The translations under genes and the position numbers were made by a program. The notes under the pieces were generated by a model, which worked only from the letters and a program-made list of their open reading frames with translations, had not been told where the DNA came from and made no database searches. A DNA stretch of 38,244 nt, from positions 1 through 38,244 of IMG/VR virus record IMGVR_UViG_3300037502_001157; one strand, given 5' to 3'. The number at the start of each line of letters is the position of its first letter. Positions within the stretch are counted from its first letter, which is position 1. Shown here one piece after another: positions 15,628 to 23,526 of the stretch. The DNA comes from a virus.

Positions 15628-15776
15628 AGCCAGGTTTATATGCAAATATCCATAAAAAAAGAGCACGCATAGCTCAAGGTTCTGGTGAACGTATGAGAGC
15701 GCCTGGAACTAAAGGTGCCCCAACAGCTAAAGCATTTAAAGAATCAGCAAAGACAGCTAGAAAATCTAAACGTTAA
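15624..15776 (+). CDS. Small basic conserved phage protein
   Basis: A 50-residue Lys/Arg/Ala-rich protein: MKPGLYANIHKKRARIAQGS, a centre GERMRAPGTKGAPTAKAF, ending in AKTARKSKR. This pattern is commonly seen next to DUF6321-like genes in phages. The start overlaps the previous stop (atga). It is the last gene of the rightward arm; its stop overlaps by four bases the stop of the leftward glycosyltransferase gene. Confidence 0.65.
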   Translation: MKPGLYANIHKKRARIAQGSGERMRAPGTKGAPTAKAFKESAKTARKSKR

Positions 15777-16513
15777 GGAGCAGGGACTAGCTGTCCTTCA
15801 AACGTATATGTCCCAACGTGAGCTAGACGAACCCATGGAGCTCCCCATACCTTTATCCCGTTTAAACGTGCTATACGACAAAAATGATAATCCTCAGAAA
15901 GTAACCTATTGGTTTCTGGTTCAATCGAAGTCGCAAAGTATTCCACGATGGGAGCCTGAGCCTTTATCGATCCTCCTAAATCAGTCACATCATTATTATA
16001 TGTAGGGCATACATCCTTTAACTTCTCAAACACTTCACGTTTGATGAGCATAAAGCCTGTGCCACCATTCCATATCTCAACTGGGTCATTCAATGGCACC
16101 ACTGTTTCACCAGCATAGCCTACAAGATTCACCACAAAAGAACCTGTGTAATACTTTAACTCTTCTGTCTTAACATTATTCTGAATAGCTTTTTGTAAGC
16201 TTGGAAAGTTAATTTCTTTTTTAGGATACAACCCACAGATAATTTCTTTGTCAGCCTCAATCATCTTAACTAGATCATTAGGATTAAATCGTATGTCACT
16301 ATCAATAAACATAAGATGTGTGGCATCACTATTTAAAAAGCCATGCGACAGAGCGTTCCTAGCCCTAGTAATAAGGGATTCATTAAACATAAAGCTAAAG
16401 ATAGATTCAATACTGTTCTGATCTAATACTCTTTGAAGCATTAAAATTGATTGAGTGTAGTAGCCATAACATTGACCACCATACATAGGTGTTGCGATAA
16501 ATACTTTTGCCAT
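15773..16513 (-). CDS. Glycosyltransferase (GT-A-like)
   Basis: A 246-residue protein with a GT-A nucleotide-sugar fold by motif: N-terminal strand KVFIATPMYGG, LITRARNAL (residues 48-56), a DxD metal motif in FIDSDI (Asp71-Ser-Asp73), a GGTGFMLIKREVFE block (about 150-163), SEDYHFC (Glu207-Asp208) and His232 near the C-terminus. No transmembrane anchor is seen. Enzymes of this kind in phages modify DNA bases, virion glycans or host surface sugars; the acceptor here is unknown. It is the last gene of the leftward arm and meets the late arm tail to tail. A good leader (aaggggattt) precedes the ATG. Confidence 0.75.
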   Translation of the reverse strand: MAKVFIATPMYGGQCYGYYTQSILMLQRVLDQNSIESIFSFMFNESLITRARNALSHGFLNSDATHLMFIDSDIRFNPNDLVKMIEADKEIICGLYPKKEINFPSLQKAIQNNVKTEELKYYTGSFVVNLVGYAGETVVPLNDPVEIWNGGTGFMLIKREVFEKLKDVCPTYNNDVTDLGGSIKAQAPIVEYFATSIEPETNRLLSEDYHFCRIARLNGIKVWGAPWVRLAHVGTYTFEGQLVPAP

Positions 16514-17244: not shown

Positions 17245-18063
17245 CTATTCGCCTTTCCTAATTGATGTTGTTATTTTTGTAATTTCTATTTGTTCTAATG
17301 CTGATAGCTTGTGGATTAAATCGATGTTGGCATCTCTTAAATCATCAAGCTTGTGTCCTTTATCCTCTAGTGAATACTTGGCACTTGTCCATATCTTTCT
17401 ATACAAATCTGTATAGGCTGTGATCCATTCCTTGTTGGTAGCATACTGAGCATAAGGCTCATCACTTCCAGGAATAAAGATAGGAATAGATAGTTCATTG
17501 AAAGGTTTGTCATCCTTCATGTCATCAAAGTCTCCAGCTTTTCTAGTGATGGCTTGGATGGTAGGAGTGACATCAACTTCTTGTGGCTTGCTATCGAAGT
17601 CTTGTATCTCCTCAGGCGTGTAGGTGCCAACTACACACCCTGGAAATACAGTTCGAATACCCTCACTGACTACCCTAGCTCTTAACATAGCTCTAGGATA
17701 CTTAGCCCAATTATCCTTGCCAGCTAAACCAATACGCTTGGCTTGTTCGAGTGTCCATGTCAATTCAATCGAACCGCCGTTGGGATGGGAGAATATACCA
17801 GTGACTTTCTCATCAGTATAATCTTTCCATTCCACTTTACCCCCAGCGCTTTGAAATCTAGCAAGCATGGCATCAGCTTTTAATGCTGGTCTGCCTTGGA
17901 TAATGTGGTAGTCCCGTGCAGCCATGGCAGGATGCAGCCCCTCAGCTTGCGCGATTGCCATGAGTGCTAGGACTTGTTCAGGTGTTTGCATACCGAACAG
18001 CTTTGATTTGGCTATGGCGTCTGCCATGCCTTTCATTTCTTCAAACGGAATGATGTTGCTCAT
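17245..18063 (-). CDS. recT: RecT-family single-strand annealing recombinase
   Basis: A 272-residue annealase. The N-terminal two thirds carry the RecT-type blocks: PEQVLALMAIAQAEGLHPAM (about residues 28-47), ARDYHIIQGRPALKADAML, AGGKVEWKDY, and PRAMLRARVVSEGIRTVFPG (about 122-141). The C-terminal part is variable and acidic. It anneals complementary ssDNA made by the YqaJ-type exonuclease encoded upstream in the same arm. The leader contains TTTCTAAC, CACAGGGGAG and then the ATG, and that leader overlaps the end of a 58-codon gene (four-base overlap). Confidence 0.85.
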   Translation of the reverse strand: MSNIIPFEEMKGMADAIAKSKLFGMQTPEQVLALMAIAQAEGLHPAMAARDYHIIQGRPALKADAMLARFQSAGGKVEWKDYTDEKVTGIFSHPNGGSIELTWTLEQAKRIGLAGKDNWAKYPRAMLRARVVSEGIRTVFPGCVVGTYTPEEIQDFDSKPQEVDVTPTIQAITRKAGDFDDMKDDKPFNELSIPIFIPGSDEPYAQYATNKEWITAYTDLYRKIWTSAKYSLEDKGHKLDDLRDANIDLIHKLSALEQIEITKITTSIRKGE

Positions 18064-18237: not shown

Positions 18238-18456
18238 TTAAGTCGCTGCCTTTCTTAAAGAATATTCAGCAATTCGTTTGGCTCCCCCCCTCCCAGAAAT
18301 TTTCACGATTTTGCAATCGATCTCATTTCCTTGTTGAGCTAAGTCATAAATACGAGCTGCTAACCTAAAACATCCATAAAGCTTCAATGCTTCAATGGCT
18401 GTAATTGTTTTATGTTGCTTTAAGTGTGACAAAATTTCTCTTGCTTGTGAATCCAT
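18238..18456 (-). CDS. Helix-turn-helix DNA-binding protein
   Basis: A 72-residue winged-helix-like protein: REILSHLKQHKTITAIEAL, then LYGCFRLAARIYDLAQQG as the recognition helix region, and a basic C-terminal wing with KISGRGGAKRIAEYSL. This is the pattern of a small HTH domain family common in phage replication clusters (HTH_39-like). It may act as a regulator or help open DNA. It is preceded by a full TCTAAC-TTTT-AGGGGATA leader. Confidence 0.7.
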   Translation of the reverse strand: MDSQAREILSHLKQHKTITAIEALKLYGCFRLAARIYDLAQQGNEIDCKIVKISGRGGAKRIAEYSLRKAAT

Positions 18457-18480
18457 TTTTTATCCCCTAAAAGTTAGATT
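18457..18480 (-). promoter_or_regulatory. CTAAC-AGGGGATA leader upstream of the HTH gene
   Basis: On the minus strand: AATCTAACTTTTAGGGGATA, then AAAAAATG. It is one of the clearest copies of the recurrent leader and lies directly after the exonuclease stop codon. Confidence 0.55.
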
Positions 18481-19381
18481 ATTTGACAAGGAACCGCCTT
18501 GACCCCGGCATTTCTACTATAAATTGCTCATACACTTCTGGCATAGACTGTTTAAACAGATCAGAGCTAAATCGCTTTGATGGCTTAGCAGCACGCCATG
18601 TCACAAGTGTTTCACCACTTACGCTTACAATATCAGCGTAATCTTGCATAGAGGCTCGTATAGCAGTCTCTATTTGTTCTGCTTTCTCTTCATATTGCTT
18701 CACAAGCCCTTTAATCTCTTTTAATTGAGCTATGGCTGTTTCCATGGCTTGTGTAGCGATCACAGATTGACCATTGTCCTTTGGATAGATCAATTTGGTT
18801 GCTTCCAAGGTTTCTGGTGCTGGGAGTGTGTCAGCTTTGACATGACCCCAATAAATAGCCATATCTTTGATTAGGTTTTCTTTTTCCTCGTCTGTGAATG
18901 TGAAATCAAACGTCTGAAATTCTTGACCACCAAATAAGACAGCCAGAATGACACGATCAACTCGATGAACGGTTGCCTCGTGTAGAATTTGAGCATAATC
19001 AGCAGGAGGAATCCTATTAGTTTCCACATCAAACTTATTTCGTGAATTAATGTTGTAATTTTTTGCTTCGACCAATACTCGACCATCAGTAGAAATAAAA
19101 TCGAAATGGGAACGTAGCCAACTATGGTCAGGATGTGTGAGAGGGTAATCCGCATCTTTTAACTCCATTTTTAGTTTATCTTGTGCTAACCTACCAATAA
19201 TGGGTTGCATGACATGACCCATCTGAACAGCCTCTATTTGAGACAAATCAGGGGGATCAATTTTGCCTTGTTTTTGCATGATGACCTCAACAGCTTTGCC
19301 ATTCATGACTTGACGAGTGTCAGACGCCCACCAAGCGCTATTTCTTACTTCCGGTAGAAAATCATCACGATCATTTGCCAT
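18479..19381 (-). CDS. YqaJ-type viral exonuclease
   Basis: A 300-residue nuclease of the YqaJ (lambda exonuclease-like, PD-(D/E)xK) group. Key parts: RNSAWWASD near the N-terminus, GHVMQPIIG (about residues 55-63), SHFDFIS with Asp94 and LVEAKNY with Glu105 and Lys107, which form the metal-binding and catalytic core. The C-terminal third is a helical, Gln/Glu-rich coiled-coil-like extension (about 215-255). It degrades one strand of dsDNA ends to give ssDNA for the RecT protein. Its start overlaps the end of a small coiled-coil gene by 11 bases. Confidence 0.8.
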   Translation of the reverse strand: MANDRDDFLPEVRNSAWWASDTRQVMNGKAVEVIMQKQGKIDPPDLSQIEAVQMGHVMQPIIGRLAQDKLKMELKDADYPLTHPDHSWLRSHFDFISTDGRVLVEAKNYNINSRNKFDVETNRIPPADYAQILHEATVHRVDRVILAVLFGGQEFQTFDFTFTDEEKENLIKDMAIYWGHVKADTLPAPETLEATKLIYPKDNGQSVIATQAMETAIAQLKEIKGLVKQYEEKAEQIETAIRASMQDYADIVSVSGETLVTWRAAKPSKRFSSDLFKQSMPEVYEQFIVEMPGSRRFLVK

Positions 19382-20326: not shown

Positions 20327-20368
20327 TGTGGATAACCTGTGGATAAGTTGTGGATAACCTGTGGATAA
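20327..20368 (+). repeat. Four tandem DnaA boxes with 11-bp spacing
   Basis: TGTGGATAA (complement TTATCCACA, the E. coli consensus R1-type DnaA box) occurs at 20327, 20338, 20349 and 20360. All four are perfect and in the same orientation, one helical turn apart. The two-base linkers are CC, GT, CC. The array would place four DnaA molecules on one face of the DNA beside the AT-rich tract. Confidence 0.85.
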
Positions 20369-22323: not shown

Positions 22324-22950
22324 CTATGCAACGGCTCTTAAGGGCTCTTCAATCGGTGCTTCGGGCTTATAATCGATCCATAGGGGCTTTTTATAAGCAT
22401 TGAAGTCCGCTTTTGATCGATAAGGCATAATCACACCTAAAAAATTGGTGTTTTGAATATCGATCACACTTCCGCTATGCCCGTTATGCCCGATTGCAAT
22501 ATCGCAATTTTTAACATCATTTAAAATACAAGCGCATTTTTTAAACTGCATAAGAAAATCGGGATCAAATTGAGCGATTTCATTGTTTAATGATTCTGGG
22601 ATAACCTTGCGAAAATCTGGATATTTCCCATCAATCGCAGGCGCTTTAAAAGTATTATGTAGATAATTGATCTCGATCATGGGATTCAAATCTAAATCAA
22701 TTAAGCTTATATTCTTAATCACTTTAGAAGCTTGATCGATTAAAGTGCTGGGAATAACGTGCTCAATCGGTGCATCCGATTTTATTTCATCGTTATGATA
22801 AATACCCATTTTATGTCCATCGGTTGCGACAAAATAGGCGCCGTTCTGATTTATTTCAACGTAAACACCGTTAAGATAATAACGGATGTCTTTTTTTGCT
22901 GTTAAAACATTTAAAGCTTTTAAAATATTAAAATCTATTTGAAATTTCAT
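22324..22950 (-). CDS. Half-length DnaN-like sliding clamp
   Basis: A 208-residue protein. Residues about 22-52 read DIRYYLNGVYVEINQNGAYF, then VATDGHKMGIYH. This is the YLNG-V-x-x-E / ATDGHRL motif of the bacterial polymerase III beta clamp, domain 2. Later blocks PAIDGKYPDFRKVIP (about 117-131) and FLGVIMPYR also fit beta-clamp strands (compare EFPDxxxVIP and the terminal MPMR). Bacterial DnaN has about 370 residues in three domains; here there is room for about one and a half to two. It could trimerise instead of dimerise, or sequester host polymerase or repair factors. No phage polymerase is seen nearby. Confidence 0.7.
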   Translation of the reverse strand: MKFQIDFNILKALNVLTAKKDIRYYLNGVYVEINQNGAYFVATDGHKMGIYHNDEIKSDAPIEHVIPSTLIDQASKVIKNISLIDLDLNPMIEINYLHNTFKAPAIDGKYPDFRKVIPESLNNEIAQFDPDFLMQFKKCACILNDVKNCDIAIGHNGHSGSVIDIQNTNFLGVIMPYRSKADFNAYKKPLWIDYKPEAPIEEPLRAVA

Positions 22951-22977
22951 AATATTTACCCTTTTTAATTGTTAGAA
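22951..22977 (-). promoter_or_regulatory. CTAAC-AAAGGG leader upstream of the clamp-like gene
   Basis: On the minus strand: GATTCTAACAATTAAAAAGG, then GTAAATATT and ATG. A compact palindrome lies just upstream (22980-22994). Confidence 0.5.
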
Positions 22978-23031: not shown

Positions 23032-23526
23032 CTAATAATTAGTAAAATAATAACCGCCTGCGCTGGAATGATCATACATTAAATCCCGTGCATATTTTCC
23101 TAAATCAAAATAGCATTGTAGGTGCTCTGGAATTGAATTTAGATCGCCTGTATTTTCCAGCATATTCCAAGCAAAATCTTCATCGTCTTTATAGCATCCG
23201 ATAAAAGAATCTTCCGCTTCATCAATCCCGCCTTCGAAACCAGCATCATGATAAGCTTGTAATAATTCCCGCTCATGCTCCGCTAAATTGATGAATTGAT
23301 CCCATAAATCAGGATTTAATCCTGATTCTGAATAATAAGATTCTGGGAAGTTTTCGAAGTCTTGAAACATAAGCTCTGGATCGGATTCATCCTTATGAAG
23401 CTCATTACAATGATCAATAAAATCATCATAGCTATTAAATTTTGATAGATCAATCCAAGCGCCTTCAATGCTTCCTGAATTGTATTTAGCATAAGTGCCA
23501 ACGTAAACTGAAGGATTATCATTCAT
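23032..23526 (-). CDS. ardA: ArdA-type antirestriction protein
   Basis: A 164-residue, very acidic protein. The ArdA pattern is visible: PSVYVGTYAKYNSGSIEGAW followed by IDLSKF (N-terminal domain), a central acidic region (QDFENFPESYYSESG), ELLQAYHDAGFEGGIDEAED, FIGCYKDDEDFAWNMLEN, and LGKYARDLMYDHSSAGGYYF at the C-terminus. ArdA proteins mimic B-form DNA by surface Asp/Glu and block type I restriction-modification enzymes. It lies early in the leftward arm, as expected for protection of incoming DNA. Length agrees with the family. Confidence 0.8.
   Translation of the reverse strand: MNDNPSVYVGTYAKYNSGSIEGAWIDLSKFNSYDDFIDHCNELHKDESDPELMFQDFENFPESYYSESGLNPDLWDQFINLAEHERELLQAYHDAGFEGGIDEAEDSFIGCYKDDEDFAWNMLENTGDLNSIPEHLQCYFDLGKYARDLMYDHSSAGGYYFTNY

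Follow-up and report, generated by a model that had tools for sequence, protein, structure and literature searches.

Clamp systems and the window gene

The pocket of the bacterial β clamp (DnaN) is a docking hub for replication and repair proteins and has been treated as a drug target (PMC11139829). Its 18 residues have been listed together with those of the dimer interface, which are I78, R103 and F106 in domain 1 and I272, L273, E298 and E304 in the first half of domain 3 (PMC11139829), and Lys198 of β is known to touch DNA directly (PMC5042465). In the laboratory, the two point mutations I272A-L273A turn full-length β into a monomer (PMC3022782, PMC11139829). A plasmid for this monomer could not be cloned when the cleft was present, while one for a monomer without cleft could, and the authors concluded that the cloning failure suggests a dominant-negative effect (PMC3022782); moreover, the monomer bound the clamp loader subunit δ about 50-fold tighter than the dimer did (PMC11139829).

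Subunits shorter than DnaN are found in PCNA and T4 gp45, which form trimers with two full domains per subunit. Among phages, N4 gp8 acts on the host clamp loader; to our knowledge N4 gp8 and Gp168 bind clamp or loader, and neither is a clamp derivative. Gp168 (β-clamp complex 7evp) exemplifies phage interference with the host clamp, which is also what we propose below for the protein described here. Other phages (Rhizobium RHph_TM3_3_14B, Microcystis Mae-JY04 and Paracoccus Psul1) carry relatives of DnaN itself, of 356-384 aa and with all three domains.

The window analysed here (the whole 38,244-nucleotide stretch of virus record IMGVR_UViG_3300037502_001157) encodes a DnaN relative of a different kind. 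The gene at 22324-22950 (minus strand; 208 aa plus stop), with a likely ribosome-binding site (AAAGGG, 22959-22964, minus strand) 8 nt ahead of its ATG, specifies a homologue of the bacterial β clamp: its product, hereafter the mini-clamp, matched the profile of the DnaN central domain (domain 2, PF02767) with E=4.7e-12 and solved β clamps with E of about 3e-11, and scored 62.4 bits against the DnaN equivalog TIGR00663, under the curated cut-off of 137.65 bits for full DnaN. Its residues 1-180 covered positions 1-187 of the 190 in the phage protein family profile PHROG_3007 (E=1.2e-27). Thus the DnaN homology, the DnaN-like motifs and the 208-residue size noted in an earlier sequence-only reading of this DNA are all real. 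That reading had also called the protein a half-length clamp, which is right as to its short size; such a size is normal for a large phage family rather than an anomaly, and the loss is not confined to one end but takes in domain 1 and the first half of domain 3.

Domain architecture, pocket and lost surfaces

The mini-clamp consists of all of domain 2 and the second half of domain 3 only, followed by a short tail. Residues 1-118 (22597-22950, minus strand) form a complete domain 2 (E. coli about 126-249; hhalign E=2.7e-32), as also seen in the AlphaFold2 model and its VIA alignment, and residues 120-178 (22417-22593, minus strand) correspond to the second half of domain 3 (E. coli about 312-366). 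When the C-terminal part was compared with six half-domain profiles via hhalign, the second half of domain 3 alone matched (E=4e-7, probability 92.7), with no match to its first half or to the other four. A comparison with the profiles of domains 2 and 3, which the sequence-only reading had pointed to, therefore recovered domain 2 and half of domain 3. The same layout recurs in distant members: in Bas77, P400, PSDA-2, R19R and Bcep781 a first match of the DnaN model spans domain 2 and a second one starts at 314-320 and runs to 367, so that the first half of domain 3 is skipped largely or entirely (blocks 138-253 and 317-367 in Bas77; the two-block alignment of Bcep781 is weak).

The AlphaFold2 model, built from a 39-sequence alignment, reached a pLDDT of 89.3 and a pTM of 0.81, with lower confidence in the C-terminal tail (residues 179-208). 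In VIA-align, model residues 1-179 superposed on E. coli β 126-366 over 172 residues (rmsd 2.3-2.5 Å, Z 14-17), so that about 69 internal residues of β have no counterpart in the mini-clamp. The predicted fold is thus that of a clamp, whereas a fold unlike one had been named as grounds for giving up the earlier reading. The subunit has neither the three clamp domains of DnaN nor the two complete ones of PCNA and gp45, but one complete domain and one half.

Two other explanations of the short frame did not hold. An artefact of truncation or frameshift is ruled out by the relatives, which are uniformly complete frames of 183-228 aa, and further by a search of the rest of the window, which turned up neither domain 1 nor the first half of domain 3; likewise the second piece expected of a clamp split over two genes was not found in the window. 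PADLOC gave no match on the window.

What the mini-clamp shares with E. coli β, besides the domain 2 fold and the second half of domain 3, is the partner pocket. The pocket mapping placed R23, L26, T43, G45, H46, K47, M48, P111, K115 and V116 in the domain 2 part and D129, F132, V173, M175, P176, Y177 and R178 in the domain 3 part, and the elements common to both proteins are D150, R152, L155, TDGH, PD and MPxR. Mean conservation at the 18 pocket positions was 0.78 versus 0.52 elsewhere, a difference reached in 0 of 100,000 permutations. The mini-clamp P0001 is identical to E. coli β at 11 of the 18 positions, and the equivalents of R152, P242 and P363 are invariant in all 39 mini-clamps compared. 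Subsite II is looser, with N320 replaced by D, N or Q, Y323 by F, Y or L, and M364 variable. Judged by these residues, the pocket that receives partners between domains 2 and 3 appears to be retained.

The surfaces that close the ring are missing. The segments that bear all seven interface residues of β are absent, and with them the head-to-tail interface. The basic DNA contacts of the channel (R197 and K198) have largely gone as well: K198, invariant in 25 of 25 DnaN, is acidic (E or D) in 33 of the 39 mini-clamps, T or S in the other six (T in that of the window) and K or R in none, while R197 is retained in 11 of 39. Because ring-closing surfaces and a conserved DNA contact are both lost, the sequences argue against a DNA-encircling processivity clamp. 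A possible charge swap was seen between positions 20 and 69 of the mini-clamp (149 and 198 in E. coli; 22744-22893 in the window): K198 has become E or D while Q149 is often K, both changes occurring together in 20 of 39 mini-clamps.

Most mini-clamps differ from E. coli β in an acidic residue for Lys198 and in an extra C-terminal tail. In the window this tail comprises residues 179-208 (22327-22416, minus strand), lies past the MPxR end of DnaN and contains P-L-W. The motif P-x-[W/F] occurs in 29 of 39 tails, compared with a mean of 4.5 and a maximum of 11 in shuffled sequences. The tail is absent from DnaN, and it may bind a partner or fold onto the pocket.

Proposed function and its alternatives

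We propose that the mini-clamp is a pocket-only derivative of β, probably soluble, which competes with host β for clamp-binding proteins; we put the probability of this reading at about 0.5. Domain 2 and the second half of domain 3 would together make up the groove that accepts clamp-binding motifs of the QLxLF type. Since both ring-closing surfaces are lost, the protein is expected to stay soluble, as a monomer or a small oligomer, whose pocket would bind peptides of host clamp-binding proteins in competition with β; candidates are the clamp loader subunit δ, Pol III α, repair polymerases, MutL/MutS and Hda. Host replication and repair would then be disturbed or re-tuned, probably early in infection. 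The mini-clamp may thus be a natural version of the monomeric β mutant: in both, the pocket is present and ring closure is lost, although in the mutant this took two point mutations in full-length β and in the mini-clamp whole segments were lost in natural evolution. Unlike Gp168 and N4 gp8, it copies the clamp's own pocket. A wider proposal, which we hold tentatively and at slightly under even odds, is that the whole phage family has reduced the clamp to its partner pocket, giving natural dominant-negative mimics that draw clamp-binding proteins off DNA. In the literature searched, no account of a phage clamp reduced to its pocket was found, and as far as that literature shows such a derivative has not been described so far. 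If the mini-clamp is a decoy, it represents a new way for phages to take over the host, and a ready-made means of perturbing the clamp hub.

The sequence-only reading had offered two mechanisms. The first, that the phage supplies its own clamp, is not supported, given the absent ring-closing surfaces, the acidic residues in place of Lys198 and the lack of the gene in two complete relatives. The second, that the host clamp loader is blocked, agrees with a kept pocket and lost ring closure, but nothing singles out the clamp loader among the partners. That the protein disturbs the clamp system of the host is nevertheless plausible, and it is the leading kind of mechanism.

Several points weigh against a decoy: i) a phage without polymerase presumably needs host Pol III, and a strong block of clamp loading would harm the phage itself, so full inhibition would be unaffordable and the protein would be expected to act at low dose, late or on preferred partners; ii) subsite II of the pocket is less strictly kept; iii) the conserved tail at the C-terminus might lie over the pocket.

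The genome context bears on the first of these points. None of the window ORFs over 200 aa matched a polymerase, primase or helicase, which upholds the earlier remark that these functions are lacking. No family A polymerase was found in 18 records with the same terminase as the window (some of them fragments), and the complete circular relatives MW202753 and MW202825 have no annotated polymerase, primase or helicase. The missing polymerase is real in this phage clade, but the link then drawn between it and the mini-clamp does not hold family-wide: among the loci examined, a family A polymerase cluster lies near the mini-clamp in 25 and a primase-helicase cluster in 26, and therefore polymerase absence is not a trait of the mini-clamp family. 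Moreover, the mini-clamp occurs in five of the 18 terminase-sharing records, fragments included, and is undetectable in MW202753 and MW202825. Thus the gene is accessory in this phage clade and dispensable for the replication of such a phage. In Bcep781, Bas77 and PSDA-2 it is a lone gene or part of a short operon on the strand opposite to the head and tail genes, a placement that resembles that of independently expressed accessory genes.

In the window the mini-clamp adjoins an ArdA antirestriction gene (23032-23526, minus strand; PF07275, E=4.7e-26) in a leftward gene block with RecE-, RecT- and RusA-like genes. The latter lie in the segment 16599-19381 (all minus strand), which holds a RecE-like exonuclease (18479-19381), an HTH_39 protein (18238-18456), a RecT-like protein (17245-18063) and a true RusA (PF05866, 16599-16961). 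The window also has a glycosyltransferase-like gene (15773-16513, minus strand), 68% identical to a 'dpG-synthase-like' gene of MW202753. The tail region encodes a beta-ketoacyl synthase-like protein of 368 aa (PF00109/PF02801; 5777-6883, plus strand) that retains SACASS, THGTGT and GHTMGASG; its gene was not found in MW202753 or MW202825.

Alternatively, the pocket might serve the phage rather than act on the host, as an adaptor that carries phage replication or recombination proteins with clamp-binding motifs. Pocket conservation and the PolA, primase-helicase or nuclease genes near the mini-clamp at several loci are in keeping with this; however, a search for Q[LIVM]x[LM][FL] or a hexamer found no clamp-binding motif in RecE, RecT and RusA of the window or in PolA and primase-helicase of related loci, motif-like matches in other clusters were interior, and in other phages the mini-clamp also sits among structural genes. 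Since such motifs can be degenerate, their absence is weak evidence, and we regard an adaptor as unlikely without dismissing it.

A more specific variant of host interference would have Hda as the target: kept off DNA-loaded β, Hda would leave DnaA ATP-bound and the phage origin would fire. The window contains four perfect DnaA boxes (TTATCCACA) in tandem at 20327-20368 (minus strand), with 11-bp spacing and beside AT-rich DNA, as the sequence-only reading had pointed out. They lie outside the mini-clamp gene and suggest a candidate DnaA-dependent phage origin, and because of them Hda is an attractive target in this phage. A similar cluster in the mini-clamp-bearing relative G004 (C1:18566-18608) suggests such an origin there too. 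Hda and other partners share the same β pocket (PMC11139829), and box pairs or clusters were present in 3 of 6 records with a mini-clamp versus 2 of 13 without. On the other hand, these record numbers are small and the co-occurrence is thin, box pairs also occur in two clamp-less relatives, and apart from the window, box clusters were seen at just two of the scanned mini-clamp loci, L002 and L089. An Hda-specific decoy is accordingly an improbable narrowing of the general proposal.

Rings of another make-up were also considered: four subunits with one and a half domains each would add up to the six domains of a clamp ring, or the mini-clamp might join with host β, and the exposed half-domain could in principle pair with another copy. 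Yet both known interface segments are missing and Lys198 is replaced by acidic residues, the net charge of its helix falling from +2.0 in DnaN to +0.3 in mini-clamps; we thus give an alternative ring little credence.

The phage family and its public label

The mini-clamp belongs to a widespread phage family and is not a broken gene. Searches via tblastn matched 240 phage records, a minority of them full-length DnaN, and at least 542 relatives turned up when viral contigs were scanned with a profile as guide. In all 81 loci inspected (the best 80 of these at least 542, plus one earlier locus) the frames were complete, at 183-228 aa. In size and content the window protein fits the PHROG_3007 family (about 170-230 aa, domain 2 and the second half of domain 3). 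Members of this family occur in hundreds of genomes, among them those of E. coli phage Bas77 and of numerous Salmonella and Klebsiella phages. When a tree was built from the domain 2 region, with few columns and some long branches, all mini-clamps fell on one side of a branch that separates them from full-length DnaN with support of 99/98, the DnaN of Rhizobium RHph_TM3_3_14B grouping with DnaN. This topology fits a single origin of the mini-clamps.

PHROG_3007 and several GenBank records name these proteins 'RusA-like' Holliday junction resolvases, a reading that has the database label on its side and that we hold to be virtually excluded: PF02767 is the sole Pfam match in 39 of 39 mini-clamps (no domain 1, domain 3 or RusA domain), none of the 39 matches the RusA domain PF05866 at E 0.001, the predicted fold is a clamp, and the true RusA of the window is a separate gene. 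Thus the public label is wrong, and the present work corrects this annotation error. It has spread to many records, with Bas77_0042, BcepC6B gp31 and Bcep781 gp15 as PHROG_3007 examples; in the Bcep781 gp15 record a note reads 'DNA Pol III b subunit fragment'.

Mini-clamps were also seen in bacterial assemblies: one lies on a 1.8 Mb contig of Pigmentiphaga kullae, maybe in a prophage (L097, 7929-8570), and another in a Nitrosomonadales MAG (L092, 4524-5171).
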